From: a virus
IMG/VR virus record: IMGVR_UViG_3300027754_004232
Location: 28,194-92,193 of that record
Strand: one strand, 5' to 3'
DNA length: 64,000 nt
The position numbers and the translations under genes were made by a program. The notes under the pieces were generated by a model, which did not search any database, was not told where the DNA came from, and saw only the letters and a list, made by a program, of their open reading frames with translations. Of the stretch, positions 7,256 to 64,000 are shown in pieces (position 1 is the stretch's first letter; each line of letters begins with the position of its first letter).

Positions 7256-7283
7256 TTAATTGAAAAAAATTTAAGGATTGAAC

Positions 7284-9474: not shown

Positions 9475-10102
9475 TACGATTATTGTTTTTGATTTTGAAA
9501 CAGGATCTTTAGATACAAATACTTGTGAAGTTATTCAAATTGCTGCAAAGGCAATAAATAGGAAAACTCTTCAACCAATAGAAGGTGCGGTATTTAATAG
9601 TCTTGTAAAACCTAGAGACTTTAATAACTTACAAGAAGCAGCACTAGCAGTAAACAAAAAGACAAGAGAAGAACTTCAGCTTGCACCTAATCTTGATGTT
9701 GTTTGGAGTAGATTTATTGATTTTATATCTACTTTTGCAGTTGGTAAAAGTAATATATTAGCCCCTGTTCCAGCAGGAAAAAACATTAGATTTTTTGATA
9801 TGCCGATTTTTCAAAGAGTCTGTATTGAATTAGGATATGTTCAGCCAAATGCCACACAATCTTTCTTTAATAAAAGAAGCATGTTTGATCTAGATGAAAT
9901 GATGCTGCTTTGGTTTGAAAATTCAGATGATATGCCTAATATGAAAATGGATACCATTAGAGATCATTTTGGAATGTCAAAGGCTAATGCTCATGATGCA
10001 CTAGTTGATGTTGAGCAAACAGCAGACTTAATCACATACTTCTTAAAACTACATAGATCAATATACCCAAAAGTTAAATTTAAAGACTCATTTAAGAAAT
10101 AA
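9464..10102 (+). CDS. DnaQ-like 3'-5' proofreading exonuclease
   Basis: A 212-residue DEDDh exonuclease. ExoI is IIVFDFETGSLD (Asp11 and Glu13), a mid-protein GKNIRFFDMPIF carries the second-motif Asp, and ExoIII is NAHDALVDVEQT near residues 176-187, with the His and Asp of the DEDDh type. It would proofread for the split polymerase whose two halves flank it, equivalent to bacterial epsilon. It overlaps the acidic small gene by 11 bases, and the polymerase C-half starts 4 bases after its stop. Confidence 0.88.
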   Translation: MKSNTIIVFDFETGSLDTNTCEVIQIAAKAINRKTLQPIEGAVFNSLVKPRDFNNLQEAALAVNKKTREELQLAPNLDVVWSRFIDFISTFAVGKSNILAPVPAGKNIRFFDMPIFQRVCIELGYVQPNATQSFFNKRSMFDLDEMMLLWFENSDDMPNMKMDTIRDHFGMSKANAHDALVDVEQTADLITYFLKLHRSIYPKVKFKDSFKK

Positions 10103-10106
10103 TAAT

Positions 10107-37000: not shown

Positions 37001-40000
37001 TGTTTATCTAAAACATTTGAAGTGTCTAATTTTGCTGCTGTATCTTTTTTAAATTTAGCTTCTTTTTCATTTTTTAATCTTTGCTGTTCATCTGCTATTT
37101 TTTGTTTTTCTTCTGCTATTCTTTTATCAAATTGTTTTTTTGCATCATTAATTTCTTGTGTATAATTCATCTGTCCTTTTTGTTTTATTCCTAATGCAAA
37201 ATCAACATAACCTTTAGATGATTCATTTACTTTTATTTGTTTTTTACCAAGGTTAGTTTCTGGAAAGTATTTATCAAATTCTGCTTTAGAAGGTATTAAA
37301 TTCGACACACCTAAACTTAAAGTTGAAAGAAGACTATTTTGAACAACTGCTGCTCCTTGACCGCTAGATATCTCATCTTTAATCGTTCTATATTCACTTG
37401 AAAAATAATCTATCCCTCTATCTCTTGATTTTTTATCAATTTCTGCTTGTGAATTAAAAAGATTTAACTTAGATTCTTTAGAAAGTCCAACATCATAATT
37501 ATCTAATTCTTTACCAAGTTTTCCTGATTCAACAGTTTTATTTGCTAGTGTAGTGAAATTTTCATTATATAACTTTATTATATTTTGTTTTTCATCGCTT
37601 TTTGTAATAGCTTTATTTATAGTTGAAGGCCAATTTCTAGAAGAACCGAATACTACATTTGATTCCTTTAAATAATCATCATTTCTTTTTTCTTCATTTA
37701 GTTTGTCCGCTTTAGTTTTTAATTCTCCAGAAAAACTAGCTACTTGCAAATATTTTTGTTTAATAGCATTTTTATATTCATCGCTATTCATAAATTCTAA
37801 ATTGGAAGATGCATTATTAATTGTATTATTGATATAACCAGCAATACCACCTCCAGCTAAATAAGATGTTTTTCCACTATTTATAGATTGTAATAATGGT
37901 AGATTTTGTTGTGTCGCACTTCTATTTACTACAAATTCTCCTGGTGTCAACATTGCAGGAACTGTATCTGTACCCCTTGGTTTAAATACTGAACCACCAA
38001 CAGCAAAAGCTGAAACTTGAGGTTTGGCTTCTGCACTTGGCAATTGTTGAATTCCACCAAGTCCATTTATAGCTTCATTTAAAGCTTTTATTCTTGCTTC
38101 AGCATTTGTTGCAGCAGTGGATAATCCTTCACCAACTCCAAGTTGAAGTTCTTTTATACTGGCCAAAGCTCTATCAAATTGATCAAATGATATTTCATTT
38201 CCAGCTAATTTTTGTGCTAAACTATTTAATTTTTCTTCAATTCCAGAACCTTTAAAATCACCTTGTATTTTTGTTTGTTCTGTATTAAGTTCCTTGCCTT
38301 TTTGTTCATGAAATTGATTTCTTGCTAAACGCAATGAATCTTTTCCTTTTCCTTCACTTATCTTTTCTTGAGTAATCTCTCTTATTTTTTGAGCTTCACT
38401 TGCCTTATACCCCCCTTCATTTACTAATGTGTTTTCAATTTCACTAGTATTAGTAATAACACCACCAACTGTTTTTATGTTGGTAGGAACTTTTCGTTCA
38501 CCTTTTTCAGCTAAACTTGTTTGTTCTTGTTTGTTTTTTGCTAAAGCTGTAACTTGTCCTTTATATGTATTCAATTTTTGAAAATCTTCTTTAGTATTAA
38601 ATCCAGATTCACCTAAAAATTTACCTTCTTTTTGAACATCTTTAATCTGTGCTACTTTTTGTTGTTCTTTTCCTTTTTCTGCACTTAAACTATTCTTTTG
38701 CATCTCCTGAGTAAACTTTTGTAGCTCAGAATAAAACTTTTCATTTCTTGAATCTAAATTACTAAAATAATCTTGTTGCAATGATTGCTGATTAGCTATT
38801 ATCTGTCTTTGTGCTTCTTCTTGTTGAGCAAAAATTCTAGCTTGTTCTGCAATAAGAGCCTTCTCTTCTGCTTTATCATCCTTACCAGCACCATATCCAT
38901 TAGCATCAAGTATTTGATCTTGTATTTTCTTTCCCGCAGCACCAAAATTATCTAAAAAATCAAATAAAATAGCATTTTGCTCCGTACTCATCCCTTGAAG
39001 GCTACCGCCACTAGCTTGTACTTGATTAAAAATTGCCTGTCCTTGCAACATTTTTTGCTGTTCTTCTGGACCTTGTGTCAATAGCTTTCTTCCTAAAGAT
39101 CTTTTCTCATCTATGTTTTGTCTAACTTGTGAAAGTTTAGCTTGTGCTGCTTCTAATTTCTTTGATTGATCAGTAAGGCTTTTTAATGCATCATTTAAAT
39201 TAGATGATTGAGATTTTAATTTTGTTAATTCTAATGCTGCACTTCTAAAGTCTGCACCACCATTTGTAGACTTATTTGTATTTAATACTTTCTCTTCTTG
39301 AACTCTTATTTGTTGTTGTGTGCTTTTTAATCTAGAAGCTATGGCAGCAGGGTTTTCTGCTGCACCAGCACCAAAACCAGTTAATCTTTGTTGTTGTTCA
39401 GAAAAGTCATTTCTTGCACCTTGTAAGTTTATACTTTCTGCTGCCCCTTGTTGTACTCCAGGAAGTCTCTGTATTTCATTAGCTGCAAAAGATCTAGATT
39501 TACTTCTTAGTTCAGAAAGTTTACCTATTTGATCCCCAATAGCTTTCTGTCTTTTTGCTAAATCTTCAAGTCCACTTATGTATTTATTTCCAGCATCAGT
39601 TAATTTGCTATCTATTTCATTAAATGCACTTATGAGTGGATCACTAATGTCAGACATTAATTTTTGAGTTGCTTTAGAAACATCTCCACCAGCTTCAGCC
39701 AACAATTTAGTAAAGTCTTCTGACGATACTTTTCCACCAACAGAACTTACTACTTGATCAGCAGCAGCACCTGTTATTCCTCTTGCTTTTAATCCTTCTT
39801 TCAATGCATCAGTTATTTGTGTTGATGTGTCCTTTCCAGATATTGGATTAGCTACAGATTGTGCAAGAATGTCTGGTAAAATTTGACTTGCTGCATTTAC
39901 TGCATTGCCTTGACTCTTAAATTGTTCTCCATAAACACCTAATGCACCAGAAGATTCAGTTATTGCTGCATTAAATTTTGCAAAATCAGGAGTTGAACCA

Positions 40001-43000
40001 CCGCTTTTTTCTGCAAAAGAAGTTAACTTTGTTGATCCAATTGAACCTTCAAATAATGATGAATTTGTATCTAACTTTGATGAGAATGAATCAGCAGATG
40101 CAGCAGCAGCATTAACCGCATTACTAAGTGACTGCATTGAATTTATAGCTCTTGCATTTTCTTGTACTGCTTTAGTAGTTACAGACTTTATTTTTTCTGC
40201 TTGGAAAGACTCTTGTAGTGTTTTTATAAATTGTTTTTCTGCATCTGCAATACTAATATCTTGAGCAGAAGCAATCTTAGCAATTTGTTCTTTTCCAGAC
40301 CCACCACCAGCGGACCTTAAATCTTTAAGTAATCCACCCTTAAGATCTTCAAAATTTGTTGTGGCTATATCTCCACCACCAGATTTTATTTTTAATGCTG
40401 CATCTTTACCTATTTGTTCACTGTATTTATTTAAAACATTAGTCAATGGTCCTATTTGTGCAGCGTTAGTTTCTTTTGAAGATTTAGACAATGTTTCATT
40501 ATACTTTTTTTGATTTACATCAGTTCCAGTAAGCCCAAAACTAATAGTGTTTAAGCCTTTCATAAAACTACTATTGTTGCCACCAGATTCTTCATATGCT
40601 TTTGTGGCGTTTTCTTCAGTCACAACTTTTTGATTTTCGGATATTTTTCGTAATGTGGAATCATTTACTTCAAGTAAACCACTTGAAACTCTTTCAAATA
40701 TATTTTGCAAATTATTTAATGCTTGAGCAATTTTTGCTTCTCTTATTTCAGCTTCTGCTTGTTTTATTCCATTGTGGTATCCTTCTATTGCACCAACTAT
40801 TCCAGCTATTCCAGCACCCACACCAGCAACAACTGGGCCAAATTTAGCTAATGATTGACCAGCAACAGCAGCGTATGTGCTTGCTGAACTTAGTGCTGCA
40901 CCAAAAGCTTGTGCTGATTTAAAACTAGATGCTGCACCTTCATCTACCTTTACAGTATCTCCTTCGCCCTTAGAAACTATTCCCGCTGCTGTTCCACCCG
41001 AAGACTTAATTCTTTCACTTAAAAAACTAGCACCCACAGCAGCAGTAGTTAGTCTGTTAGCTACAGTACTTCCTCTTGATTGTTTAAACTGTTGATCTCC
41101 TTCTGAACCAGTTTCAAAGTCAGTTCTTTTTGCACCAAAAAGTGCCCTTTCTCCAAAATCTTTTAATGCTCCACCTTTTGTTAGTTCTCCAGTTTCCTTA
41201 TATCCACCACCAACAAGTTTTTTACCTAAACCAGTATCTCCAGTTATTTCTCCTTGAGCATTAGTCTGTAGTTTTCTTTGCCCTTTACTGGCCTGATTAA
41301 CATAATTATCTACAACTGATTGTACTTGTATATCATTTACTGGCTTTCCTCTTTTTACTGCATCTGCTCTGACTTGTTTTTCTACTCCAGTTCTATATTC
41401 GCCCAAAGCTTCTTGCTTTAAATTTTTCTTGTCTTCCTTAGTAGCCTTTCGGTTAAATGTTGCCTCAAAATTTGCGGTTTTTTGTTTAACAATATCACTT
41501 ATTGATCCTGGACCCCTAGATGATTGTTCACCAACAACTTTATTGTTTTTTGTTACTTCTCCAGATTTATTTACTTTGTATTGGTCTAAATCTACTTTTG
41601 CTTTTGATTGTTCGTCTTCTGCTGTTTTATATTTTGCTTGATCAGCAGCAACAGTTTTCTGAAGTGGTACAAGCCTAGATTTTTCAGATACAAGTTCCCT
41701 TCTTTTATCTGCCAATTGATTGTTTACGCTGTCTAATTTTTTTTGTGCTCTAGCATCACCTGGGTTTGCTCTAAGAAAAGCTTCTTGTTTTTTTTGTGCT
41801 GCTTCAAGACCCTTAATTCCTTTGGATAAATTTTCAGTTACTGTTTGTTGATCTTCTAATGTTTTTGTTGATCTTTCAAGCTGTTGCTTAAGTCTATTCG
41901 CTTCTGCTGATGTATCTACTAATTTTTGCCCTTTTGTTTTAATATCGTTATAGCTAGTTGCTGCTTTAGTTCTTGCCTGACTTCGAGTTAAATCTGGATT
42001 ATTTTGCATCTGCTGATCAACTAGTTGCTTTGCTAATCTAGCCATTTTTCTAGGGTCTGCTGGATCAAAAGTATTGTCCTCACTTAATGGTGTGCCACCC
42101 TTGCCTAATTTTACTGAGCCACCTCTAGCAAATTTAGCAAACTGATTCATAGCATGTAATTTTGAAGAACCAATCTTGTTTGCTTCTTGTGGACTATATA
42201 TGTATTCACCTGGCATTACTAATGCAGGAACAGTACCACCACTAGCAAATCTTGAGGCTTTTGCTAAATTATCTGCACCTATCTTATTAACTGAAGACTT
42301 TCTAATTACAAAAGAGCCTTCGGGCAAATCCATAGGAACAGTGTCGGAGTTTCCAGTTCCTGGTACTAATCCACCAGTTGCAAACCTACCTTTTTTGGTT
42401 CTAGATGTAGCAGCAATACCAGCTAATAATCTTTGGTATTCAGCTTCTTGTGCATCATAGGAAGCTGTATTGCTTGTATTTTTTGTAGCTCTAGGTTTTC
42501 TTGGCTTTCTTGGTTTTTTTACTTTAGCATAAGGATCATAATTATCTTCTGGAATCTGTGTGTTTGGTAAACTTACAATTGGCTTTGCTGCTTGTGCCTG
42601 TGGTTTTAATTCCGATACGACTGGCTTTGCAATCGCTATTGGTATTGTTGCTTGTGCCTGTGGTTTTGTTTCTGAAACGACTGGCTTTGCAGTCGCTGTA
42701 GATCTCAAGCTCCTTAAGTTTTCTGCCAAATTTTCATTCGCTATTCCTCTTTCTCTTACTCTATTTGATTGTCTTTCATTTAATCTAAGATTTCCTTTAA
42801 TGCGATTTTCTGCTGATGTATCTCTAAGTCGTTTTAAGGCATCAGCATTATCTTTAATCTTCTGTTCTTGTGTTCCATATGAGCCTATTTTGGCAAGTTC
42901 CATTTCATCAAATAAAGTTTTTTCTTGTGCAGGAGCAGACTGCTTTCTTGATATGTTATATCTTTCGGACTCTGTTTTCGGAGTTCTTGGTTCTTTTTTA

Positions 43001-46000
43001 GTTTTCTGACTTCTTGCTATTTTAATATTTAAATTTTCGTTGAAATCCCTTTCTTCTCTTTGCATTCTTAGTCTTTGTGCTTGTGGCGATGTGCCTGGAA
43101 TATCAGAAAAGAATTTAAATCTTTTTGGGTCTACTTGTTGTTGTTCTTGAGGTGCTTTATAATTTTCATTTATACCGATTAAATTTTTTGGTTCTAAACT
43201 TTCTTTTGGATTAGGCAACCCTCTTCCTTCTCTTCGTTGTCTATCTAAAGCCAACTTTTTCTGTAGTTCTTTATATTGATCTGAACCTTCAAATACTTTT
43301 GTGTCTCTAGCTATACCAAATGTTTTATTTTGTTGGTTTTCTTCATCTATTCCAGAAATAATGCTGCTTAAACTTGAAGCATTATCAGTTTTTGCTTTTG
43401 TTGCATCTGCTGTACTTGCTGAAGCAAGATTTCTATTTTTTTCTGCTTTAGCAGTTCTAGCAATATTTTCAGCTTTTTTTCTAGCATTTCTTTCTGTAGC
43501 TACTCTTAATTCTTCAGTGCGTTTTTCTTTTGGCGTTTTTGGTTTCCAAGGGAATGTTCCAATGGTTCCAAATTTTATTACATCTTTATCTAGCTGTATA
43601 TTTAATGGGCCACGCTTATCGCCAAAATCATAATCAAACTTAAGATCTTTGATGTTTTTTGTTTGTGAAAACTTATCTTGTGCTCTATTAAGTTTTGCTC
43701 TTAGTTCTTCTGAATGTTTTGGTGGTAGTTTAGAAAGAAGCTCATCTAAAGATTTAACGCCTTTTAAATCGTATGTTGGTTTTACTTCTGTTGGTTTTGT
43801 AGTGCCCTTGTCTGCAAGATCTTTATTTGCTGTAACATTAAATTTTGTACCAAGAAAATTAAATCCAACAGACTTTAATTTCATTGATCCAGATGTTCTT
43901 GCATTTACTATTATTTCCTTAGCAGTTTTTATTTTTTCTTTAAAATCAGCTAATTGTTTTGGGCTTAACGCATTGGTAAATTCTTCTAAGTTTTTTGGTT
44001 TTACAACTGGCTTTGCAGTTGGTTTTGGCTTAGTCGGGATAGGTGCGGTAGCGGTAGCTGTGGCGGTAGGTTTTGGTACTGGTGCTGAAACGACTGGCTT
44101 TGCAGTCGGGATAGGTGCGGTGGCGGTGGCGGTAGGTTTTGGTACTGGTGCTGAAACGACTGGCTTTGCAGTCGGTGCTGAAACGACTGGCTTTGCAGTC
44201 GGGATAGGTGCGGTGGCGGTGGCGGTAGGTTTTGGTACTGGTGCTGAAACGACTGGCTTTGCAGTCGGTGTTGAAACGACTGGCTTTGCAGTCGGTGCTG
44301 GAACATATGGCTTTCCAGTCTTTCTTATTTCATCTAAAATTCTCCTTGCTTCATTTTTTCTTTCTTCCCAGTTTGGTCCTCTAGCCTTAGCTTTTTCTTC
44401 CTGCAAAATTCTCGATGCCTCATTCTTTCTTTCCAACCAATTTGGTCCTTGAGATTCACTTTTTGCTTTATTTAAATCTGCTCTTGCTTTATTTAATCTT
44501 TCATTAAATTTCGGTCCTTGAGGTTTCTCATCATATATTTTTGTCCAAGCAGCAAGTGCAGACTTTGCTTCTGGACTTGCAATGTCTTCGTTATATATTT
44601 TATCCCAAGCAGCAAGTGCAGACTTTACTTTTGGGTTTTCCATTCCTTCATCATCTATTTTTAACCAAGCAGCAAGTGCTTCTTTTTCTGAAATTCCTGG
44701 CTTTGCAGTCGGTGCGGTAGCTATAGGTTTTGATACTGGTTCTGAAACGACTGGTTTTACAGTCGCCTCATCTTCATCTGGCCTTCTACCCGCTTGATTT
44801 ACATATTCTCTATGCCCTCTTTTTACTTGTCTTTCATACTGAAATTTTTTAAATTCTTTAGTGTCACTAATAAGCTTTCCTGTTTTTGGATCTTTTTTAA
44901 GATTGGGTTTTAATAAGTTAAGGGGGTTTAATTTTGACAATGTGTCTCGCACACCACCAAAAATGCCTTTTGCTTTTTTTATTCCTAAATATTTTTCTGC
45001 AAATTTCTGTTTTCTTCTTTCTCCTTTAAATTCAATGTTTTTTCTAGCATCATATGTGTCACTTTGATTAAAATCTGTTAATAGTCTTCCGCTATCTCCA
45101 CCTCTTGATCCTACCAGTTCTCCTGGATAAACAAAACTTTTTAGTATATTGCTTTCTCCCATATCTCCACCACTAGGAAGAAGAATTGATCTTCTGTCAG
45201 CAATATTTCTTTTTTCGTATTGCTTCCTTATTTTACTTTCTGCTTCAAGTTTTTTTGCTTGTTTTTTTTCTTCTATTTGTTTAGGAGAAGAGAATATTTT
45301 TTTGCCAGCTTTATTTCCAAGTGCCCCAAGTCCAAATCCAGAAGCCATAGATCCAACAACTAAACCAGAAAAATATCCCATAAAAGGACCAATACTTGGA
45401 TCATCACCAAGAATAGAATCACCACCAAGTATTCCAGCAGCAAATGGAACCATCCCACCAACAACACCAAGCGAAACACCAAGCAACATTGACTTATCAC
45501 CAACAGTTAATCTTTCGGGTCCACCCCCCTTGCCAAACTTTTGTCTAGCCACTTGATTTTTTGGAACAACTAGTTCGCCTGGCTCAAGTAATGCACGAAC
45601 CTTATCTCCAGAGCCACTTCCCGGTACTATCCCGCCCTTTTTCATCCTTACAATAGGACCACCTTCAAAGTATCCACCTCTTTTTGCTTTAGCAGCTTTC
45701 TGTCTTTGGCTATATGCAGTAGAAGCATTATCTGTTTTAGCTCTCTCTTTTGCTTCTTCATTTGGGCGAATGCCCCTAGCTGCTTCAAAACTATCAAATC
45801 TATTTGGTTTGGTGAATGTTTCTGGATTTGTACCTTGCCATTGACTTCTTGCTTGAGCTTTAGTTGGAGGATCTTTAAAAATAGATCTAAACATTTCATC
45901 TTCTGATTGAGCATTACTTTTTGGGGGTGGTGTCGTAGTCTTTGGACCAGCTTCAGCCCTTGCTTTTCTAAGACTGTTTCTATCTAATAAAGTCTTAAGA

Positions 46001-48780
46001 GCAGCATTTATTCTTTCCATGTTGCCATTAGGTTTAGCAGTAGGATTCTTGTCTGGATGATTTATTTTTGCAGCAACTCTAAATGCACCCTTTATCACTT
46101 CATCTGTATGAATAACGCCCTTGACCAAATTTAAAATTTCTTCGGGGGAAAAATTTGGTGGAAATGGTTTTGGTCCTACATTATTGCCCTCCATGAATCT
46201 TTGGCGAGAGATTGGTCCACCTAGAGCAGCTTTTCTAAATTTAAATTTGCGAATTTTTTCAAGTTCTTTATTATTGTATGTTGTTTTTATTGAACTTAAT
46301 TCATCAAGAATTCTAGTATCGTAGCTTGTATCTGATTCAGTAGCCGATTGAATATTTTCTTTTCTGTAAGATTTTTTTTCTTTTTTTAAATCATTTATTT
46401 GATTTTGTACATCTGCTTTTTTTAAACTAGAATCTTCTATCCAATCTTTTTGTTTTAATTTTTTAATTATTTCTAATTGAAAAACTTTAGTGCCAACTTC
46501 TTTTCTAAGAATCGAACTAATTGCATCATCACTACCTTTATTTTTTGAATCTATAAATTTATCTTTTGAATCAAAATCAGAACCTTTAATTCCTATCATT
46601 GTTGCTTGTGTTTTATTGAATTTTGGAAAATCAAATCTAGCACCAGAAACTTGAGGTTTTAATCCTGTTTTTTTTGAAATATAAGACTCTAAAAAATACC
46701 CCCTTTTAGAGCCTACTTGTGATGCTAAATATTTTGGATCAACACTAGAATCATTTTTAAATATGCCAGAAACTAATGGTATATTGTTTTTACTTTTTAA
46801 ATTAATGCCCAATTTTTTTTTCTTATTTAAGAATGAATTTAATGTTTTTTGATTGCTTACGAGATTTTTATCTTTTGATATATAATCATCTGGTCCAAAA
46901 TAATAATTTCTAGCACCTTTTGCTCTAAGTATTTCGTTTTGAATTACTTGATATTCTTGAGAAAGCACAGTGTTTTCTATTTTTTTATCTAATGAATTTA
47001 TGTCTTTTTTACCAATAGTATATATATTTATTGATGAATCTTTTATGCTTATTTTTTGTTTTGCTTTTTGTGGTTTATTCCGATATGTAAAAACATCATC
47101 ACCATAAATAAGTGGCGTTCCTTTAGGAAAAGATATTTGATTATTATTTGATTTGGATTGTTTCTTGCTTGGTTCACTTGAAGCTTCTATTATTGCTCCT
47201 TGACCAGGAGTTGCTTGAAAATTATTTATATCTATAGTACCGCCACCAGCATATTTATTTCTTCTTACTTGATTCCTTGGCACAACCATCTCACCTGGCT
47301 CAAGCAAAGCTGGCACTTTATCCCCAGTTCCACTTCCTGGGACTATACCCCCTGTTCTCATCCTAAGAAAACCGCCATATGCCTTTTTATTTGTCCTTGC
47401 AGAAGAATTGTCTGCACCAGCACCTTTTACAAAACCTGTGGCAAAAGAGCCAATTCCTTGACCAATTTTTACAGCAGCAAGGGCAGTAAATAATGGGAGT
47501 AAACCTTTAAGTGAATTAATTAATGACAAAACAGAAGTGGCAGCACCAATGAATGTATCAGCCAAACTTCTAAAGCCAGGGCTATTAACAATACTTCTAC
47601 CAACCTCAAAAAAGCTTTCCTTCAACTTCTGTAGTTTTACAGCAAGAGCATCCTGTGCTTGGCCAGCATTAACGGCTAAAGACACACTACCAGCTTGAGC
47701 TATACCCAATGCCTTCTGTGCAGTAGCAAATTCTTGAATAAGTGGGATAACCTTACTGATCTGCCTATAACCACCTAATTGCTCAACAATGGCACTAAAT
47801 CGGGGGTCTGTTGACCTTAATTCAGAAAGTCCAGCAGATAATCTTTTGACTGCTTCATACGGACCAACAAACTGCTGTTCTAGGCCAGCATCGCCTAAAG
47901 CCCTAGCTTCTTCTGCTGTATACCTAAGATTTATACCAACTTCTTTTAGAGCGTTAGCCGTATCATTTCTTTGTATTCGTGTAAATATAGTTCGCAAACC
48001 AGTACCAATACTTTCGGCACTTTCTCTTGTCGTTTGTCGTACTGATGTAAATAAAGCTATAAGTTCATTTAGTTGACCACCAGCAGCTTTAAATGCACCC
48101 CCTGTCTTTCTAATCGCCTCAATAATGTCTGATGCTTCAACAGCAAACTCACCAGCTACGGCATTAACAGAACCTAAAGCTGCACCAAGATCTTTTGCTT
48201 CGATCTTAAACTGCTTCATAATAGCAATAGCACCTTCAGTCGTATCTTTGAGGTTATCAAAGTTTGGTGCTAAAGCAGCTTGTGCCATTGCTTCTAATGC
48301 ATCTTTAGTTTCAGAAAGAGTTAAGTTAGCTTGTTTTAAAACTACCGCTACGCCAATCAAGTCCTTGCTAGAAACACCTAAATTTTTAGACAAATTTGTT
48401 ACTTGTTGACCTACAGCACCAACATCTTGTACTGTGTCTGAAGAAACTTGTCTCAGCCTAATCATCTCTCTATCAAAATCTACCGCAGCAGAAACAGCTT
48501 CTTTCATTGTGTTGGTAAAAGCAATGATTGATCCAGCAGTAACGGCAAATGCAGCAAACCTTTTGGCAGCAAAGCCAGCTTGTCTACCAAAATTTTCCAT
48601 AGAGTCAGTAGCTTCAGAAATTTGAGACTTTATTTGCCCCAATCCAGAAGCACTACCTCTATCAATACCAAGCTTTACTTGAGTATTAGAATTTAGTGCT
48701 GCATTTAATTGGCTTGAAGCATTCCTCAGAGAAGCACTATTGAGAGCAATATTCAATTGAGCAGTTAAATTAAAAGCCAT
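34054..48780 (-). CDS. giant tail tape measure protein with J-domain and PGE modules
   Basis: A 4908-residue tape measure protein, which sets tail length and guides DNA ejection. The N-terminal ~450 residues carry the classical tape measure domain (AAVDFDREMIRLRQVSSDTV, QANLTLSETKDALEAMAQAA, then ESIGTGLRTIFTRIQR). Further along are seven PGE modules (residues ~473, 1047, 2132, 2190, 3593, 4440 and 4683), a DnaJ-like J-domain at ~870-945 with the HPD motif at 908-910, and hydrophobic spans at ~1093-1150 and ~2647-2670. Pro-Val/Thr-Ala repeats lie at ~1340-1597 and ~2020-2073, and Gln/Lys-rich coiled coils near 2900-3400. It is far longer than typical tape measures. AGG seven bases before the ATG serves as ribosome site, and a terminator lies just upstream. 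Confidence 0.93.
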   Translation of the reverse strand: MAFNLTAQLNIALNSASLRNASSQLNAALNSNTQVKLGIDRGSASGLGQIKSQISEATDSMENFGRQAGFAAKRFAAFAVTAGSIIAFTNTMKEAVSAAVDFDREMIRLRQVSSDTVQDVGAVGQQVTNLSKNLGVSSKDLIGVAVVLKQANLTLSETKDALEAMAQAALAPNFDNLKDTTEGAIAIMKQFKIEAKDLGAALGSVNAVAGEFAVEASDIIEAIRKTGGAFKAAGGQLNELIALFTSVRQTTRESAESIGTGLRTIFTRIQRNDTANALKEVGINLRYTAEEARALGDAGLEQQFVGPYEAVKRLSAGLSELRSTDPRFSAIVEQLGGYRQISKVIPLIQEFATAQKALGIAQAGSVSLAVNAGQAQDALAVKLQKLKESFFEVGRSIVNSPGFRSLADTFIGAATSVLSLINSLKGLLPLFTALAAVKIGQGIGSFATGFVKGAGADNSSARTNKKAYGGFLRMRTGGIVPGSGTGDKVPALLEPGEMVVPRNQVRRNKYAGGGTIDINNFQATPGQGAIIEASSEPSKKQSKSNNNQISFPKGTPLIYGDDVFTYRNKPQKAKQKISIKDSSINIYTIGKKDINSLDKKIENTVLSQEYQVIQNEILRAKGARNYYFGPDDYISKDKNLVSNQKTLNSFLNKKKKLGINLKSKNNIPLVSGIFKNDSSVDPKYLASQVGSKRGYFLESYISKKTGLKPQVSGARFDFPKFNKTQATMIGIKGSDFDSKDKFIDSKNKGSDDAISSILRKEVGTKVFQLEIIKKLKQKDWIEDSSLKKADVQNQINDLKKEKKSYRKENIQSATESDTSYDTRILDELSSIKTTYNNKELEKIRKFKFRKAALGGPISRQRFMEGNNVGPKPFPPNFSPEEILNLVKGVIHTDEVIKGAFRVAAKINHPDKNPTAKPNGNMERINAALKTLLDRNSLRKARAEAGPKTTTPPPKSNAQSEDEMFRSIFKDPPTKAQARSQWQGTNPETFTKPNRFDSFEAARGIRPNEEAKERAKTDNASTAYSQRQKAAKAKRGGYFEGGPIVRMKKGGIVPGSGSGDKVRALLEPGELVVPKNQVARQKFGKGGGPERLTVGDKSMLLGVSLGVVGGMVPFAAGILGGDSILGDDPSIGPFMGYFSGLVVGSMASGFGLGALGNKAGKKIFSSPKQIEEKKQAKKLEAESKIRKQYEKRNIADRRSILLPSGGDMGESNILKSFVYPGELVGSRGGDSGRLLTDFNQSDTYDARKNIEFKGERRKQKFAEKYLGIKKAKGIFGGVRDTLSKLNPLNLLKPNLKKDPKTGKLISDTKEFKKFQYERQVKRGHREYVNQAGRRPDEDEATVKPVVSEPVSKPIATAPTAKPGISEKEALAAWLKIDDEGMENPKVKSALAAWDKIYNEDIASPEAKSALAAWTKIYDEKPQGPKFNERLNKARADLNKAKSESQGPNWLERKNEASRILQEEKAKARGPNWEERKNEARRILDEIRKTGKPYVPAPTAKPVVSTPTAKPVVSAPVPKPTATATAPIPTAKPVVSAPTAKPVVSAPVPKPTATATAPIPTAKPVVSAPVPKPTATATATAPIPTKPKPTAKPVVKPKNLEEFTNALSPKQLADFKEKIKTAKEIIVNARTSGSMKLKSVGFNFLGTKFNVTANKDLADKGTTKPTEVKPTYDLKGVKSLDELLSKLPPKHSEELRAKLNRAQDKFSQTKNIKDLKFDYDFGDKRGPLNIQLDKDVIKFGTIGTFPWKPKTPKEKRTEELRVATERNARKKAENIARTAKAEKNRNLASASTADATKAKTDNASSLSSIISGIDEENQQNKTFGIARDTKVFEGSDQYKELQKKLALDRQRREGRGLPNPKESLEPKNLIGINENYKAPQEQQQVDPKRFKFFSDIPGTSPQAQRLRMQREERDFNENLNIKIARSQKTKKEPRTPKTESERYNISRKQSAPAQEKTLFDEMELAKIGSYGTQEQKIKDNADALKRLRDTSAENRIKGNLRLNERQSNRVRERGIANENLAENLRSLRSTATAKPVVSETKPQAQATIPIAIAKPVVSELKPQAQAAKPIVSLPNTQIPEDNYDPYAKVKKPRKPRKPRATKNTSNTASYDAQEAEYQRLLAGIAATSRTKKGRFATGGLVPGTGNSDTVPMDLPEGSFVIRKSSVNKIGADNLAKASRFASGGTVPALVMPGEYIYSPQEANKIGSSKLHAMNQFAKFARGGSVKLGKGGTPLSEDNTFDPADPRKMARLAKQLVDQQMQNNPDLTRSQARTKAATSYNDIKTKGQKLVDTSAEANRLKQQLERSTKTLEDQQTVTENLSKGIKGLEAAQKKQEAFLRANPGDARAQKKLDSVNNQLADKRRELVSEKSRLVPLQKTVAADQAKYKTAEDEQSKAKVDLDQYKVNKSGEVTKNNKVVGEQSSRGPGSISDIVKQKTANFEATFNRKATKEDKKNLKQEALGEYRTGVEKQVRADAVKRGKPVNDIQVQSVVDNYVNQASKGQRKLQTNAQGEITGDTGLGKKLVGGGYKETGELTKGGALKDFGERALFGAKRTDFETGSEGDQQFKQSRGSTVANRLTTAAVGASFLSERIKSSGGTAAGIVSKGEGDTVKVDEGAASSFKSAQAFGAALSSASTYAAVAGQSLAKFGPVVAGVGAGIAGIVGAIEGYHNGIKQAEAEIREAKIAQALNNLQNIFERVSSGLLEVNDSTLRKISENQKVVTEENATKAYEESGGNNSSFMKGLNTISFGLTGTDVNQKKYNETLSKSSKETNAAQIGPLTNVLNKYSEQIGKDAALKIKSGGGDIATTNFEDLKGGLLKDLRSAGGGSGKEQIAKIASAQDISIADAEKQFIKTLQESFQAEKIKSVTTKAVQENARAINSMQSLSNAVNAAAASADSFSSKLDTNSSLFEGSIGSTKLTSFAEKSGGSTPDFAKFNAAITESSGALGVYGEQFKSQGNAVNAASQILPDILAQSVANPISGKDTSTQITDALKEGLKARGITGAAADQVVSSVGGKVSSEDFTKLLAEAGGDVSKATQKLMSDISDPLISAFNEIDSKLTDAGNKYISGLEDLAKRQKAIGDQIGKLSELRSKSRSFAANEIQRLPGVQQGAAESINLQGARNDFSEQQQRLTGFGAGAAENPAAIASRLKSTQQQIRVQEEKVLNTNKSTNGGADFRSAALELTKLKSQSSNLNDALKSLTDQSKKLEAAQAKLSQVRQNIDEKRSLGRKLLTQGPEEQQKMLQGQAIFNQVQASGGSLQGMSTEQNAILFDFLDNFGAAGKKIQDQILDANGYGAGKDDKAEEKALIAEQARIFAQQEEAQRQIIANQQSLQQDYFSNLDSRNEKFYSELQKFTQEMQKNSLSAEKGKEQQKVAQIKDVQKEGKFLGESGFNTKEDFQKLNTYKGQVTALAKNKQEQTSLAEKGERKVPTNIKTVGGVITNTSEIENTLVNEGGYKASEAQKIREITQEKISEGKGKDSLRLARNQFHEQKGKELNTEQTKIQGDFKGSGIEEKLNSLAQKLAGNEISFDQFDRALASIKELQLGVGEGLSTAATNAEARIKALNEAINGLGGIQQLPSAEAKPQVSAFAVGGSVFKPRGTDTVPAMLTPGEFVVNRSATQQNLPLLQSINSGKTSYLAGGGIAGYINNTINNASSNLEFMNSDEYKNAIKQKYLQVASFSGELKTKADKLNEEKRNDDYLKESNVVFGSSRNWPSTINKAITKSDEKQNIIKLYNENFTTLANKTVESGKLGKELDNYDVGLSKESKLNLFNSQAEIDKKSRDRGIDYFSSEYRTIKDEISSGQGAAVVQNSLLSTLSLGVSNLIPSKAEFDKYFPETNLGKKQIKVNESSKGYVDFALGIKQKGQMNYTQEINDAKKQFDKRIAEEKQKIADEQQRLKNEKEAKFKKDTAAKLDTSNVLDKQGAIAKTKDIEKQKAKLKESGIQGDYVNSGLINEVGSQNVDKFIKEKGAKEDNYFFRRKGSPEAIAKIYLQREAQAQAIIGKMKLIQDNPEEDPTGITPKFAFEVGQQELQKLIKGEETTIDKKSLSNISAGQKKIVDSFITMNSFEKAATSKGPEMASYIETYGKAITKDPQVLVEKLIKEKAKRSDISGDPEFITAQAQGIFEALMFLDREGKANKLFASTNQIKKGRGFLEVLEEKSDKNIQSFTRFGKLTGNGIGENGIGNVNFGKKVDTEIDFSATDFRTAVPQMDNEQIIEVLMAKGLYPYKSGLDNNVLKALDATASISNYGYLNFPANKEDVVQGLMDGGLFRVNSFPKQDDEGKTIFERQATIALLENKNTYQRLVEISKQIKGDGQEPNKKAESDPNSKSQTNVVKSSNGPLPSDDANSIANRTRRGEITPQQGGVQLVNQIDDRNQADEIAALEQGDNEGRIRIMQKYQRMRDARATGMSVGGVVNYLATGGNVPSYRPNPNPSYFKPKGTDTVPAMLSPGEFVINAGATAKHGDLLSAINSGQDVGYSATGGLIEYLAYGDSSTSFEKRLKNAGITQKGMMEAIQSGDKQQIYEMNLKAGDAQRNSRNEVLSKNFEKQLGFNFFKGPDANKKAGVSRIGDAGNYAEGPQELGSYAIETKPIQLAKEQEQKQEQQKQKQTRTMPLLPPTQPTTTPPDVKDKKPDNTNAVVKTDPKQSIGEIEQLKAKMEALQAQQDAMANEELYFSKGGIPSSSSDTIPAMLTPGEFVVNARQSSKNASLLHAINTGKDVEGFANGGTVGYYAGGRTNSGGKTSGLLLQAAITFNNGTSRFDAAISRMNRPDGGSNNNNQINIAKSSFEELSRILKTEIKIGSGPIDKFNNAVTQFGTNSTGFNSGFSSSLEKFKTYVDELSAAINRIPGTLNLEIMGTLNASLNVNFDTSSVYAAVTDATESLKGWITSEIDRQITDEMG
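43990..44760 (-). repeat. Pro-Val-Ser/Ala-Thr repeat tract in the tape measure gene
   Basis: The tract encodes repeats of TAKPVVSAPVPKPTATATAP type. At DNA level a unit close to GAAACGACTGGCTTTGCAG recurs (near 44093, 44153, 44181, 44243 and 44271, with diverged copies near 44742, 42617 and 42675). Near-identical neighbouring copies suggest recent expansion. It would form an extended, flexible segment inside the tape measure. Confidence 0.75.
45946..46170 (-). other. DnaJ-like J-domain inside the tape measure protein
   Basis: Residues ~870-945 read as helix I (FSPEEILNLVKGVI), helix II ending in AFRVAAKINHPDKNP (HPD encoded at 46051-46059), a loop, and helix III MERINAALKTLLD, then a basic helix. 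Order, spacing and the invariant His-Pro-Asp match J-domains that recruit and stimulate Hsp70 (DnaK). No J-domain was noticed elsewhere in the window. Confidence 0.78.
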
Positions 48781-56840: not shown

Positions 56841-57371
56841 TTATCTTGAGAAAAATGTTCTGCCTTCGTTGCCATTATAATAAGCCTGATCTCTAGAACC
56901 AGCAAACAGCCTAAACGGACTCATTATAGCAGCACCAGCCGTTAATCCAACTCTTGCTGTTTGATATTCTAGTTTAACTTCTTCGTAAACATAACACCAA
57001 CCTTTTTCTAGCAATTTCATTCTACCATCCATAGTTCCACGCAAGTCAATAGAAGAACTACCATCTCTAATAGCAATTCCTTGACCAACAGCCCTTCTTG
57101 TCTCGCCACGCTCTATTAAACATGCTGATTTTATGGTCACTAAATTTATAAAATTATCATCTCTAGTAGTCGCCCTATCTACTGGACTAGGCTCAATCGT
57201 GAGTGCTTGAATATCAACTTGAAAATTATTTGCAAATCTTAATTCTGAAGTAACTAATTGAGCAGCAACAGCAATTACTTGCGTAAGTCGTTTATCTGTA
57301 TAGAGTTGTGGAGAAACTAAATCGTCTAGTAAAACTCTCAATAATGTTATGAATTCTGCTTGCCAGTACAT
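56841..57371 (-). CDS. head-tail connector-like protein
   Basis: A 176-residue protein. The N-terminal part (FITLLRVLLDDLVSPQLYTDKRLTQVIAVAAQLV) is a helical bundle like that of neck/adaptor proteins. The middle has an IEPSPVDRATTRDDNFINLVTIKSACL segment, and the end is LTAGAAIMSPFRLFAGSRD, beta-rich and basic. This layout fits gp6-type adaptors loosely. AGAGG precedes the ATG, and a GGTGTATTA motif lies 35 bases upstream. Confidence 0.6.
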   Translation of the reverse strand: MYWQAEFITLLRVLLDDLVSPQLYTDKRLTQVIAVAAQLVTSELRFANNFQVDIQALTIEPSPVDRATTRDDNFINLVTIKSACLIERGETRRAVGQGIAIRDGSSSIDLRGTMDGRMKLLEKGWCYVYEEVKLEYQTARVGLTAGAAIMSPFRLFAGSRDQAYYNGNEGRTFFSR

Positions 57372-57420: not shown

Positions 57421-59811
57421 TTAATCGGTAAATGGTGGCACTATAACTATATTGCCAACAGACAGTGTAATTATATGGGTATTAGATAAGGTAGATCTAA
57501 ATTCATATGACCACCTTCCTGCCCCAATTTGTGCTAATTCTTCATTGCTAAGTTCAACTCTTAAAGATGTTCCATTAAGTAGTTGTGCTCGTTTAATAAA
57601 TGTTGGTCTAGAATCAATCATAAAGTCTGTAGTAGAACCAGTTAGGTTTGGCCAATCAACAGAAGTTATATCTATCGATCTTGATTCTTGAATTAAATAA
57701 TCATCTGTAAGTCTTAGTTCTATAGGGTCTGCTGGATTAATCGGTATTGGATTTGTTAATGATGGAACTCCTACTCCAGAAGTGGCACATCTTGTGCTTA
57801 CTTTTACATCTACATTTTCATATTCTTCTGAATTAATTGCGGTAACACCTAAAAGTTCAGACCCACAATAAAATTTAATAGCACCTCTAAATGATGTTGG
57901 TATTATTCCAGTAAATAAATAATTGCCATTTGTTAAATTTGCAAATCCTGTTGAGTGTGAAACACCATAATTTGTTCCATCACCATTTATTAATTGTGCA
58001 TACATATAACTACAGTTTTCATATTTTTTGCCCAAAGAAAGACTAACCCCTAAAGTAAATCCTTCTGATGAACTAGGATTTGAATTAGATGTAAATACAG
58101 CTATTTCATAACCAAGGTATTCTATTGCTGTGGTAATAGAAATTTGTTCGCTAACAGATTCTGGAGATCCATGAGAAATAGCCCTAATATAATATGTTGT
58201 TCCTGGATTTAAATTTGAAATAGTAACACTATGACTTGTTACTAAATTAGAATCTTCAACTGTAGAATTTGCATAACCATAATTTGGTTCTGATCCTAAT
58301 GTTGTGCGAGAAGTAGTGTCATAAATAATACGACTGGTTGAAGGAGTATTTGTTTGCCAAGTAATTTGTACTTGACTGTTGTTTATAAAAACATAGTTCA
58401 ATAAAGAAATTGTTGGGCCTACTGGGGTAGGAGTAGGTGTTGGAGTAGGCGTTGGTGTCGGTGTCGGTGTCGGTGTAGGCGTTGGGGTAGGTGTTGGTGT
58501 TGGAGTCGGTGTAGGCGTAGGTGTTGGGGTAGGTGTTGGGGTAGGTGTTGGTGTTGGCGTTGGAGTCGGTGTTGGGGTAGGTGTTGGAGTCGGTGTTGGA
58601 GTCGGTGTTGGGGTTGGAGTAGGAGTAGGGGTTGGAGTAGGCGTTGGAGTAGGCGTTGGAGTCGGTGTTGGGGTTGGAGTTGGAGTAGGGGTTGGAGTTG
58701 GAGTAGGCGTTGGAGTAGGCGTTGGAGTTGGAGTAGGGGTTGGAGTTGGAGTAGGCGTTGGAGTAGGCGTTGGAGTAGGGGTTGGAGTTGGAGTAGGCGT
58801 TGGAGTAGGCGTTGGAGTAGGCGTTGGAGTCGGGGTAGGTGTTGGCGTTGGGGCAGTGTAACAATTTTCTCTATTAAAAACTGTAACATTAGAACTTTCG
58901 TAATTTGTTACATATAAATTTTCTCCATCCAATGGCATTGCAATACCATAAGGATTAATCCCGCCAGTTAATACAGTATCAATTAAATAAATCATTCCAT
59001 CTAAAGAATTTATTGTAAATATAGAAACACTATTGCCAATAAAATTAGTCACATAAAGATTTCTATTGTCTGAAGAAATCAAAATATTTTTTGGTTTTAA
59101 TCCACAGTTTACATCTCTAAAATGAAGCAATGCACCTGTCGATGGATTTCTTGAAAAAATTGAAACTGTATTGTCATATGAGTTAAGGCAATAAAGAACT
59201 CTTCCATCTAATGAAACAACCATTCCTAGCGGTTCATTTCCAGTTGCTATTTTTGTTGAACCAGAAAGAACTCCTGTTGATGACCTTCTAAATATTGAAA
59301 TGCTATTGCTTTTAAAATTTGAAACATAAACATTTTTTTGATCTGAAGAAAAACAAATTTCGTTTGGTTCAAGTTCAGTAGCCGTACTATTTACTATAGT
59401 TAATAAACCAGTAGAAATACTTCTTGTATAAGAAGAAACAGTATTTTGATCTTTATTTACAAGATAAATATTTGTGTCATTTAAAGAAATTATAATTTTA
59501 GTTGGGTTAGATCCTGATGATGGAATTGTTGCTGCTATACTTAAGGAACCATTTAAAGTATTTCTGTCAAAGATTGAAACTGTTCCAGAAGAATAGTTTG
59601 TTGCATAAACATTTTTACCATCATTTGAAATACATACTTCGTAAGGATTGACTTCTGTGGGAATTACTGCATCAGAAGTAAGAACTCCAGAAGTAGTGTT
59701 TCTACTATAGATCGAGAGTGTGTTTGAATTAAAGTTTGCTACATAAGCATTTTTGCCATCACTAGATAAACACAATCCTTTTGGATTTAATTCGCTTGCT
59801 ATAATTATCAT
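57421..59811 (-). CDS. seven-repeat beta-propeller with Pro-Thr linker and FN3 domain
   Basis: A 796-residue protein. Residues ~1-315 hold seven repeats of about 42-45 residues, each with a NP-x-(E/K)-(I/V)-x-(I/F)S-D-(G/x)-x-N-(V/L)Y-(V/A)-N core and S-F-R-N end (for example [20 protein letters not shown]), the YVTN/lactonase-type propeller. Residues ~320-465 are (PT)n, about 145 residues. An FN3-like domain follows ([40 protein letters not shown]) and a C-terminal beta domain. The propeller likely binds a ligand or glycan; the linker is a stalk. The paralogous FN3 lies in the gene cut at the window edge. Confidence 0.8.
58424..58853 (-). repeat. Pro-Thr (PT)n coding tract
   Basis: About 430 bases of ACHCCH-type codons on the - strand (GGWGTW on the + strand) encode roughly 72 Pro-Thr pairs. 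Codon third bases vary (T, A, C), so the tract is not a perfect microsatellite; the amino acid pattern rather than the DNA is conserved. It looks liable to slip in length. Confidence 0.8.
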
Positions 59812-59812
59812 T

Positions 59813-62800
59813 TTAAACTAATCCCCCAATTCTGCAAATAGTTGGATCTGATAAGGATGAACCTTGAATTTCTGCGTATTTACTATCGTAATTAGTTCTG
59901 GTCGTAGAAATTCTAATAGTGTCAAAAGTATTAGCTGGCATTCCAGAAACAGTGACTAATCCAGTATTTGAAATTGTAACTGTATAGTTTCCACCTGATT
60001 GATAACTATAAGTAAAATTAGCATCATAATTAGTAATTTGTACTGTAAATCCATCTAGTGTTGATGTTACTGAACCAAAAACTGGAGTATTAGCTACATT
60101 TGCAATAAAATTTATAGTTACACTTTTTCTAATTATGTCTGGAAACAAACCAGTTTGTTCATTAAGTGGAAGAGTTTGCGTACAGCAAAAAGGACCAGTA
60201 TCAATTTTATAAAAATCAATTACAATACTAAAATCTTCTGCTAAATTATTTTTTACTTTAAAAATAAATGGCGTTAAGGATTGTGTTGGACATACCCAAT
60301 TATAATTAAAATTATTTAATCCAAAATAGGGTATTCCTTGACTACAACTAGGAGAAAGATCAAACTGATATGGAGTAATATTTGTATTTTCGCTTAAGAA
60401 ATTTGATAAATCAACAAGCTTACTGTCAAAAACATTGCAATTTTGAATTGATGAAATTCCAGACTCATAAATTGTAATATTAAGTGCGGTATTAAATTGA
60501 AATTCAAAATATTGATCATATGTTAAGTTAACAGTTAGCGGAAGAGCAGAAATATTCTGCCCATTAAGACCTCCTGTTATTTCACAACAGTATTCACATG
60601 CAGGAATACTTGGTGGTGGAACAATTGGAACATTTGGAAGAGTTGGAACAGGAGAAAATGGAGGACTATCACTTATACATTCTCCATAGAAACAATATTG
60701 TGGTGGAACGCAAATTGTTCCACAATCATTACAATTAAAGCTATCAAATAATACATTTTTACAAATTCCATCACAACATTTAAATGGTGCTGGACAAGAT
60801 GAATTACAGCTTCCACAATTAGTAATGCTGTCAAGAATATCTACACAGCTTCCGTTGCAACAAGCCGTTCCAGTGCCACAAACAGTTTCACAATTTCCAC
60901 AATTTGCTTCATCTGTTAGTTTGTTAACAACAATACCCCCACAACACGATTGACCTGTTTGTAAACGCTGACCACAACCACCACAATTATCTGAATCTGT
61001 ATCTAAATCTACACACGCACCATTGCAGCATGTTAGTCCTGCACCACATGCGTTTCCACATGTTCCACAATTTGCTTCATCTGCCAATAAGTCTTTACAT
61101 ATGCCAGAACAGCATATTGTTCCATATAAACAAGTAACTCCACAAGCCCCACAATTTGATTCGCTTGTATTTAAATTTACACATGTTCCGTTACAGCATG
61201 TTTCTCCTACATCACAAGCATTTGTGCAAGAACCGCAGTGCTGTTCGTCTGAAAAATAATTATAGCACCCTCCATTACAACAAACATCTTGTGGACCACA
61301 AGCATAATTACAAGTGCCACAATTATCTACATCTTGAGAAAGTTCTTTGCATACTCCATCACAACATGTATAACCTACAAGACAAGAATTGTAACAACTA
61401 CCACAATTTGCTTCGTCTGTATTTAAATTTTTACATGCTCCGTTACAACATGTTTCTCCTATAGCACATACATTTCCACATGTTCCGCAATTTGATTCAT
61501 CTTGACTTAAAATAGAACAAACTTTAGGTAAGGCAGGATTTGGATTTGGGCAACAACTGGCTTGTTCGCTTCCGCAACAATAACCATCACAACACATTCC
61601 ATTTGGACAAATAGTTCCACAAGCACCACAGTTATTTCTATCTGTCTTGGTATTTTTACAAACGCCATTACAGCATAGTTCATTTTCCCCACAAACAACT
61701 CCACATGCCCCACAATTTGATTCATCAGAATTATAATTTGTACAAACACCATTACAACATTCATATTGTTGATTACCAATACCAACCATGCCACATTGAT
61801 TTCCACATGTGCCACAATTAGATCTGTCTGTTTGAGTATCTATGCATGAATAAACCCCATCTTTTTCACAGCATGTTTTACCAGCATCACAAACATTCCC
61901 GCAAGCACCACAATTTGAAGAATTCAACTTGCTTACACAGATAGGAGTAAGCCCACCCGCTGGATTCTGGCAACAATTTGATTGGCTATTACAAGCATTA
62001 GAAGGATCTAAACAGCCTGGGTCGTATGACTTTTCTCCTTCTCTTTGAACACAAGAGCCAGCTACACATTCAACCCAAATCCGTTGTACATAACTACCAT
62101 TCTCATCTACATCATATTTAAAGGCTTCTTTTCCAGAGGTTGTAACTCCGTTTATTATAAGAAAACATTCATTAGTACATGATCCGCAATGAGTAAGACT
62201 TGCTTGCAAATCTGTGCAACTACCATCACAACATTGTTTTCCATTGGTGCATGTTTGATAAGGGGTCCAGCCAGGATAATTACAACCACCACATTGAGTG
62301 TTATCAGTCATTAGATCTACGCAAGTACCAAAACAACAATGTGTTCCTGATGGACAAACATTGCCACAAGTATTGCAATTATTATCGTCAGTACCATATT
62401 TGCATACTCCACCACAACACAATGACCCAACTCCAGTTTGATTATCTGTGCAATCATTCCCGCATTCGCCACAACTTAGTGGGTCTATTTGATAATCTCT
62501 GCATACGCCATTACAGCATTGTTCTGGAAATACACACTGATTTCCACATGACCCACAATTATAAAAATTGCTTGATGGATCTATGCATCCTGCTGCTGCA
62601 CCAAAAATTGGATTAGCAGGAGCACAACAAATTTTACCTTGTGGTTCACAAAAACCATACAAGCAATCACATGAGTCAATACTACAACAGTAGCCATCTT
62701 TACAATAACTTCGAGCACCACAATCATTGCCACAATCACCACAGTTTCGAGCATCACGATATATATCTACTGCTACGCCACCGCAACATGTATTAAAAAC

Positions 62801-63436
62801 AGGATCTGAAGTTATATTATTATAACAACTTCCGCAATTGGTTTCATCTATCTGCAAATCTACGCAATGACCACCACAACATTTTTGACCTCCTGTGCAT
62901 GGACCATTACAGTTTTCACATGCATCATCAAGCCACCCAACATTTTTACATGTTCCATTACAACATGTTTCTCCTGCACCACATACTTTTCCGCATGATC
63001 CACAGTTTCTATCATCAGTAGATGTATCAATACAAGAAGAAACGCCATTTGCTACACAACATGTTTTGCCATTACAATTACGACCACACCCACCACAATT
63101 TTGATTTGTGCTTACTAATACTCCCTCACAACAAATTTGATTAAGTCCAGTACGATTTCCACATGCACCACAATTATTATAATCATTATAAAATATACAG
63201 TAACCATTACAACAATTAAATCCAGCAGCACATGCTGGAATACATGGTCTTCCACCACCAGTAGTACCATTTACTGTAAAAACATTTATTTCTTCATTTG
63301 GATCAAAGTACTGCTCTTGCCAAAAAAGAACATTGTCGATATTTACTGCTTGATATATACACACATCTAAACTTAAAATTTCACCTTCATAAGATGGAAT
63401 TATTTGTAAGTTTGATGGTTCAATACAATTAGACAT
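59813..63436 (-). CDS. Stig1-like Cys-repeat virion protein
   Basis: A 1207-residue protein. Residues ~75-960 contain about 25 repeats of ~28-32 residues, consensus (N/H)CG-x-C-x(3)-C-x(4-6)-CC-x-G-x-C-x(7-8)-(N/H)CG, with a few longer insertions. The pattern matches Stig1-like domains known from plants and some bacteria. Each repeat has six or more Cys, so disulfide-rich, and the protein has a fibre-like appearance. A C-terminal ~250 residues are beta-rich, with a [20 protein letters not shown] strand set (Ig-like). The ATG at 63436 follows AGGAG by seven bases, and an upstream in-frame start is rejected. No signal peptide is seen. The likely role is an exposed fibre that needs oxidising surroundings. 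Confidence 0.78.
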
Positions 63437-63446
63437 TTTAAAACTC

Positions 63447-64000
63447 CTATATATGACCAACTGGTCTAAAATAATATATTGTGCTGGGCAAAAGCCCAGT
63501 GACAGTAACAGTATGTGTTGTGGTTAATTGTGTATTTTCTACTGTTGAATTTTGATAACCATAATTTGGATAAGTCGATGGAGATAAAACCTGTGTTGTT
63601 TCATATAAAATACGACTAGTTAAAGGAATTAAACTTTTCCAAATAACTGTTACTGATGTTGTTGTTCTTGCAGAATAAGTGATGTCGTAAATCATTGAGC
63701 TTGGAATAGGCGTTGGAGTAGGAGTCGGGCTTGGGCTAGGTGTAGGCGATGGCGTTGGACTAGGAGTCGGGCTAGGTGTTGGGCTAGGAGTTGGGCTAGG
63801 TGTTGGCGTAGGCGTAGGTGTTGGAGTAGGCGTAGGTGTCGGTGTTGGAGTAGGCGTAGGAGTCGGTGTTGGCGTAGGAGTCGGTGTTGGAGTAGGCGTA
63901 GGAGTCGGTGTAGGAGTCGGTGTTGGCGTTGGTGTAGGAGTAGGCGTAGGTGTCGGTGTAGGAGTCGGTGTTGGCGTTGGTGTCGGTGTTGGCGTAGGTG
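63447..64000 (-). CDS. FN3 protein with Pro-rich linker (5' partial)
   Basis: The end of a protein whose start lies beyond the right edge. The visible ~184 residues are a Pro-Thr/Pro-Ser linker (PTPTPIPSS at its end, PSPSPT-type within) and an FN3-like domain ([41 protein letters not shown]). The FN3 part is clearly paralogous to that of the propeller protein: SRIxYxTT, PNYGY-NSTVE and T-HxVT occur in both. The frame stays open to the window edge. It ends 11 bases before the start of the Stig1-like gene. Confidence 0.75.
63700..64000 (-). repeat. Pro-Thr/Pro-Ser coding tract (partial)
   Basis: About 300 bases of GGWGTN-type sequence on the + strand, encoding alternating Pro-Thr and Pro-Ser, running off the window edge. 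It differs from the tract at 58424 by a Ser-containing part (CCTAGC/CCCGAC-type codons near 63720-63790). It would form a stalk before the FN3 domain. Confidence 0.75.

Follow-up and report, generated by a model that had tools for sequence, protein, structure and literature searches.

Modular surface proteins and disulfide-rich virion proteins have each been described in phages. Gut phages carry modular Ig-like adhesins (PMC13370021), with Ig/Hoc domains acting in mucus adherence (PMC6867891, PMC11853027), and the receptor-binding proteins of Klebsiella phages are modular, with a constant attachment module (PMC8262889). Agrobacterium phage Milano has Cys-rich virion proteins whose disulfides were demonstrated in released particles; its structural proteins contain 2.1 to 2.4% Cys, and the bonds lie within or between core capsid, collar, and sheath proteins (PMC10811340, PMC10491603). 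The Pfam family Stig1 (PF04885) covers the plant stigma-specific protein STIG1 and bacterial arrays, and in our literature search Stig1 and phage were mentioned together only in a study of poplar pollination.

Here we describe a Stig1 ladder protein encoded by an uncultured, long-tailed siphovirus. The window that we analyzed is a stretch of 64,000 nucleotides, bases 28194 to 92193 of a 92,193-base virus record, so that its right end is also the end of the record. The locus is best filed as an unusual variant of known modular phage surface proteins. It is like the Ig-like adhesins in that interchangeable extracellular-type domains occur in varied combinations, but those adhesins have an Ig fold and come from human gut phages, whereas here a Cys ladder in another phage family would do the binding. 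As in the Klebsiella-type receptor-binding proteins, the attachment part is constant and the specificity part is swapped; in contrast to them, the constant part (modules A1 and A2, below) is C terminal and the locus lies on the head side of the tail genes. Compared with Milano, the protein has 14.3% Cys in one repeat array, and the bonds would probably be intrachain. The sequence-only reading of this DNA had called such disulfide-rich ladders rare in virions, which is broadly fair, although Milano provides a precedent.

A Stig1 ladder in the phage late block

The ladder gene lies within a minus-strand late block that runs leftwards from the record end, while the plus strand encodes a DnaB-like helicase, a primase, and a PolIII-type polymerase. 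The features of the late block that concern us are as follows.

63447..64000, minus strand: preceding gene, with a P/T linker and an FN3-like domain, truncated within a P/T repeat, where the record ends
59813..63436, minus strand: Stig1 ladder protein, 1,207 residues, 173 Cys, ATG start (the frame reaches 63460 if a TTG start is used)
63272..63436, minus strand: N-terminal module of the ladder protein, its first ~55 residues, common to otherwise different Cys-rich proteins of relatives
60647..63247, minus strand: Cys ladder, about residues 64 to 930, with 23 starts, from the repeat pattern and Pfam Stig1
60653..61492, minus strand: regular ladder segment in which ten units follow each other at intervals of exactly 28 residues, from the repeat spacing
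59816..60664, minus strand: C-terminal Pro-rich stretch and ~240-residue domain, without Cys ladder
57421..59811, minus strand: propeller gene, directly after the ladder gene (PF10282, E = 9.4e-43; PF16656, E = 1.3e-8)
57424..58062, minus strand: A1 anchor module, 213 residues, the last part of the propeller gene
56841..57371, minus strand: constant late gene, 176 residues, our marker for relatives, called "neck" from position only
34054..48780, minus strand: tail tape-measure protein, 4,908 residues, no Cys (phrog_4211, E = 7.5e-26; PF10145, E = 1.4e-23)

The length of the tape measure sets the length of the tail, and one of 4,908 residues implies a very long noncontractile tail. The 3' end of the preceding gene overlaps the TTG-started ladder frame by 14 bases.

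Cys makes up 14.3% of the ladder protein (173 of 1,207 residues), compared with 1.56% in the other window reading frames counted and 0.61% in the other minus-strand late genes. By profile, the protein belongs to the Stig1 sequence family: PF04885 matches it in 11 stretches with 332.8 bits and E = 2.5e-101 (cut-off, 24.1), and a scan of the phage genome with this profile gave 14 matches, against none in 14 control genomes. The sequence-only reading had described about 25 near-regular Stig1-like repeats with six Cys each, and the profile result bears out the family. Its count was a fair one: the (N/H/S)C(G/N)xC start occurs 23 times, at intervals, from the N to the C terminus, of 25, 31, 56, 31, 62, 28, 32, 63, 92, 32, 34, 28, and 47 residues and then nine times of exactly 28. 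The ladder is thus regular in its C-terminal half and irregular in its N-terminal half, where units are 25 to 92 residues apart. The six Cys per unit were correctly read, the consensus of 19 regular units being NCGxCGxxCxxGxxCCxGxCx(D/N)xxxDxx. A match to the whole six-Cys pattern is seen at 17 places; in 500 composition-preserving shuffles of the protein it came up 2.9 times on average and never more than 6 times. This unit is the same as that of Pfam Stig1, and its CC form is also found in a Stig1 family protein of a Chloroflexi metagenome-assembled genome (L046).

The phage ladder differs from plant and bacterial Stig1 proteins in being a long array between phage-specific modules and in having no apparent signal peptide. 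Plant STIG1 is a secreted signaling protein, but no signal-like hydrophobic core was found at the N terminus of the phage protein; a crude hydropathy maximum of 1.68, compared with 1.85 to 2.98 in four bacterial ladders, is suggestive at most. The N-terminal module aligned with five relatives at pairwise scores of 89 to 138 (shuffle maximum, 47). For the C-terminal ~240-residue domain, our searches returned neither a family match nor a relative, and the whole protein had no close relative among named phages or viral contigs. In the DNA of the window ladder, no tandem repeats rose above threshold except a 9-base array at 60617. The units are therefore old.

The sequence-only reading had also proposed predicting the structure of three to four consecutive repeats. 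For the first four regular units (61142 to 61492) and a 49-row alignment, AlphaFold2 gave a confident model (mean pLDDT, 94.5; pTM, 0.73), a compact repeat with one beta-hairpin per unit; a single-sequence run on ten units was poor (pLDDT, 52.8). Because the modeled repeat is compact, a protease-resistant fiber, as that reading had imagined, is plausible. A fold search against the PDB had its best hit in disulfide-rich TNF-receptor-type ectodomains (E = 0.65) and one against a viral structure library in giant-virus proteins (E = 0.027), neither significant, and a sequence search of the PDB with the ladder found no match.

Stig1 ladders also occur in other viral lineages (G022, G023, G024, and G025), including a 2,654-residue frame with 27 matches in the 136-kb G022 and a 2,203-residue frame in the 189-kb G025. 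In G022, a lactonase-type propeller and 29 TIG stretches also sit in one 3,361-residue protein, so ladder and propeller are paired once more, in a second lineage that appears to be unrelated. The units of the ladder in a second virus lineage are nearly alike, which makes recent duplication likely there. Among bacteria, PF04885 was found in 60 of 77 Myxococcota genomes and, in Chloroflexota, in 2 of 121, a figure that includes the genome used as centre; by inspection, the bacterial ladder proteins have lipoprotein-like or Tat-like leaders. A host origin of the phage ladder, which the sequence-only reading had thought possible, is no more than a possibility.

A cassette site with constant anchors and swapped passengers

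Using the 176-residue late gene, which has no family match, as a query, we found 21 viral contigs with proteins 57 to 100% identical. In these relatives the locus lies between collagen-like or collar fiber genes and the constant late gene. The 141.8-kb relative (L014/G004) gives the longer order: a terminase (phrog_2, 4e-10), portal-like (0.0011) and decoration-like (phrog_563) genes, a weakly matching major-head-like gene (0.005), collagen-like fibers of 1,803 and 741 residues, and collar-like proteins, followed by the variable locus, the 176-residue gene, and the tail genes.

Two modules stay at the locus, A1 (213 residues) and A2 (121 residues), and their relationship shows in a 111-residue alignment with a local score of 266. 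Wherever a relative's contig spans the site, A1 is there, with 41% identity in a distant, GC-richer clade; A2 was recognized in the closer clade and not in the distant one among the loci compared. Neither has a clear family: A1 matched nothing better than E = 0.039 in Pfam or 0.097 in the PDB, and A2 had no Pfam match. They may resemble BppU_N and other domains that attach tail or baseplate proteins, although no profile of that kind matched them. A counterpart of the first half of A1 (39% over 92 residues) is encoded at L181:6995-7519, among structural-looking genes of a 333-kb virus contig.

What is joined to the anchors changes from phage to phage. A1 stands alone beside the marker gene in many relatives and forms the C terminus of varied fusions in others: with a ladder through a long S/P/T linker (L013, L014), with a Cys-rich body other than a Stig1 ladder (L012), or, in the window phage, with a propeller, in the order seven-bladed lactonase-type propeller, (PT)n linker, FN3-like PF16656 domain, and A1. 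A2 carries ladders in L016 and L021 to L026. The passengers thus comprise Stig1 ladders, other Cys-rich bodies, a lactonase-type propeller, FN3-like domains, and P/T or T-rich linkers. A 670-residue protein with a trypsin-like GDSG-type motif, a P/T linker, and an A2 anchor (L013:838-2850) is possibly a protease passenger at the same site, judged from its motif; it has no Pfam protease match. In L017, L020, and L027, A2 is followed by A1 with no passenger. The sequence-only reading would have taken absence of the gene from relatives with the same structural module as a sign against a structural role; such absence does happen, but the anchors stay, which argues for an exchangeable passenger rather than a nonstructural gene.

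The main evidence for passenger exchange is the contrast between similar flanks and divergent or absent ladders: in L012, L013, L014, L015, and L027 the flanking genes are 74 to 98% identical to those of the window, while the ladders are ~33% identical or absent. L013 and L014 also differ by 78 residues of linker in a neighboring protein (1,159 versus 1,081 residues). A diversity-generating retroelement at the site is unlikely because reverse transcriptase (PF00078) is absent from seven records, some of them fragments; the same profile was positive in 3 of 14 control genomes.

Within the ladders, the conserved part, as read from alignments, is the Cys framework. All Cys columns are invariant in an alignment of 49 four-unit ladders taken from phages and bacteria. 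When the window and L013 ladders are aligned, 124 columns pair Cys with Cys and 26 pair it with another residue, and identity at the non-Cys positions is 29.6%. In two ladder segments common to allelic proteins (L016, L024, and L026), all 57 Cys are kept (32 and 25), with synonymous changes in their codons, and dN/dS is 0.22 to 0.46, which shows, at the codon level, purifying selection on the allelic ladders.

A proposed displayed ectodomain and the alternatives

With a probability of roughly 0.6, we read the ladder as an ectodomain that can be exchanged, belongs to a stalk or adhesin displayed on the virion, and becomes oxidized after lysis. The site between the head and fiber genes and the connector and tail genes would serve this long-tailed phage family as a cassette site, with the constant A1 and A2 modules holding passengers on the particle and recombination exchanging them between phages, as for other adhesin modules. 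The ladder would be displayed near the head-proximal part of the particle or on fibers. Since it has no signal peptide, its synthesis in the host cytoplasm would leave it reduced. Once the cell has lysed, the three Cys pairs of each 28-residue unit would oxidize to give a stiff, degradation-resistant rod, which may carry, or itself form, a surface that binds host or particle-surface polymers. That the protein is a phage structural protein, as the sequence-only reading had it, agrees with its position in the late block and with the ladder-A1 fusions in L013 and L014, but this assignment comes from position, and the sequence itself is silent. The weakest step is the attachment of the window ladder, because it lacks both A1 and A2: it is a separate gene between the truncated P/T-FN3 gene and the propeller gene that carries A1, and the N-terminal module is all that it has in common with anchored relatives. 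A more specific version, which we consider doubtful, is a dedicated display site whose constant anchors take whole foreign ectodomains, the Stig1 ladder being a redox-set stalk, reduced and flexible in assembly, stiffened by oxidation on release, and possibly loosened at a reducing host surface.

The ladder could instead be a passive spacer or armor that decorates the virion, giving reach and protease resistance without binding. Its uniform, strongly Cys-conserved repeat beside P/T and T-rich linkers would suit this, as would the mechanical and thermal stability that disulfides give Milano (PMC10491603). However, a spacer would not need to be replaced by a propeller, by other Cys-rich bodies, or by nothing, and the surface residues of the repeat differ widely between the window and L013 alleles, so we regard a purely passive role as unlikely. 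Less likely again is a soluble protein outside the virion, freed at lysis to serve, for example, as a decoy, to inhibit proteases of the host or of predators, or to work as an effector on neighboring cells. The lack of an anchor on the window copy and the secreted-type N termini of the bacterial ladders are what one would expect of such a protein, but ladders or other Cys-rich bodies are fused to anchors in L012 to L014, L016, L018, and L021 to L026, and the phage ladder has no signal peptide of its own.

The two remaining explanations concern the chemistry of the ladder and the integrity of the record. Cys that bind zinc or iron-sulfur, in the manner of metallothionein, rather than forming disulfides would fit a resemblance, in profile searches, to zinc-finger arrays with a 28-residue period, but this similarity is very weak and its E values (0.34 and 0.7) are what chance gives. 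Conserved His is absent, the even number of Cys per unit, including the vicinal CC, is invariant, and the bacterial homologs appear to be exported, all of which makes metal binding very improbable. P/T arrays do break assemblies, since the window record, L011, and L015 all end inside one, and a piece of a bacterial or eukaryotic contig might in principle have been joined to a phage in this way. Such an artifact is hardly credible, as independent records from several samples show ladders with the same gene surroundings and the GC content (0.358) is close to that of the window (0.334).

If the displayed-ectodomain reading holds, an extreme disulfide-ladder fold for which we found no solved relative would join the few domains known to be displayed by phages. 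The near-isogenic phages, with an empty site, a ladder on A2 or on A1, or a propeller on A1, would then form a natural series that could show how a displayed domain affects host range or persistence.

Other features of the phage and its relatives

The Pro-Thr dipeptide linkers at 57421 to 59811 and 63447 to 64000 (minus strand) are very long and uninterrupted, and the P/T linkers are encoded by recent-looking 12-base tandem arrays. Inside the late block, a glycosyltransferase-2 family gene (599 residues; 54541 to 56340, minus strand) is kept in the closer relatives and could modify the T/P-rich linkers. A second Cys-rich protein, of 466 residues with 39 Cys and T/S-rich linkers, is encoded at the tail-tip end of the late block (24458 to 25858, minus strand); it has no Pfam match, and the 141.8-kb relative has a 518-residue, 52-Cys reading frame at about the same place (L039:2-1558). 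The tape measure contains a DnaJ-like stretch at residues 882 to 935 (E = 4.6e-5, below the Pfam cut-off).

Searches of named phages with two structural proteins and the tail-tape DNA found no relative, and the DNA polymerase gave distant matches only, so these searches point to no cultured relative and no host. A DUF1501 protein with a Tat-like leader in the 141.8-kb phage record (L041:14489-15766, minus strand; E = 5e-91) is a possible host clue. The PolIII-alpha-type DNA polymerase is split into two genes (7278 to 11732, plus strand) with an RNase T-type exonuclease gene in between, and in G022 the polymerase body is separate from a 449-residue frame whose start is PHP-like. A 673-residue protein at L010:8116-10137 (record positions 27116 to 29137) appears to be a fusion of two parts, one similar to helicase-loader, terminase, or primase-type ATPase families and the other to RecA/UvsX.
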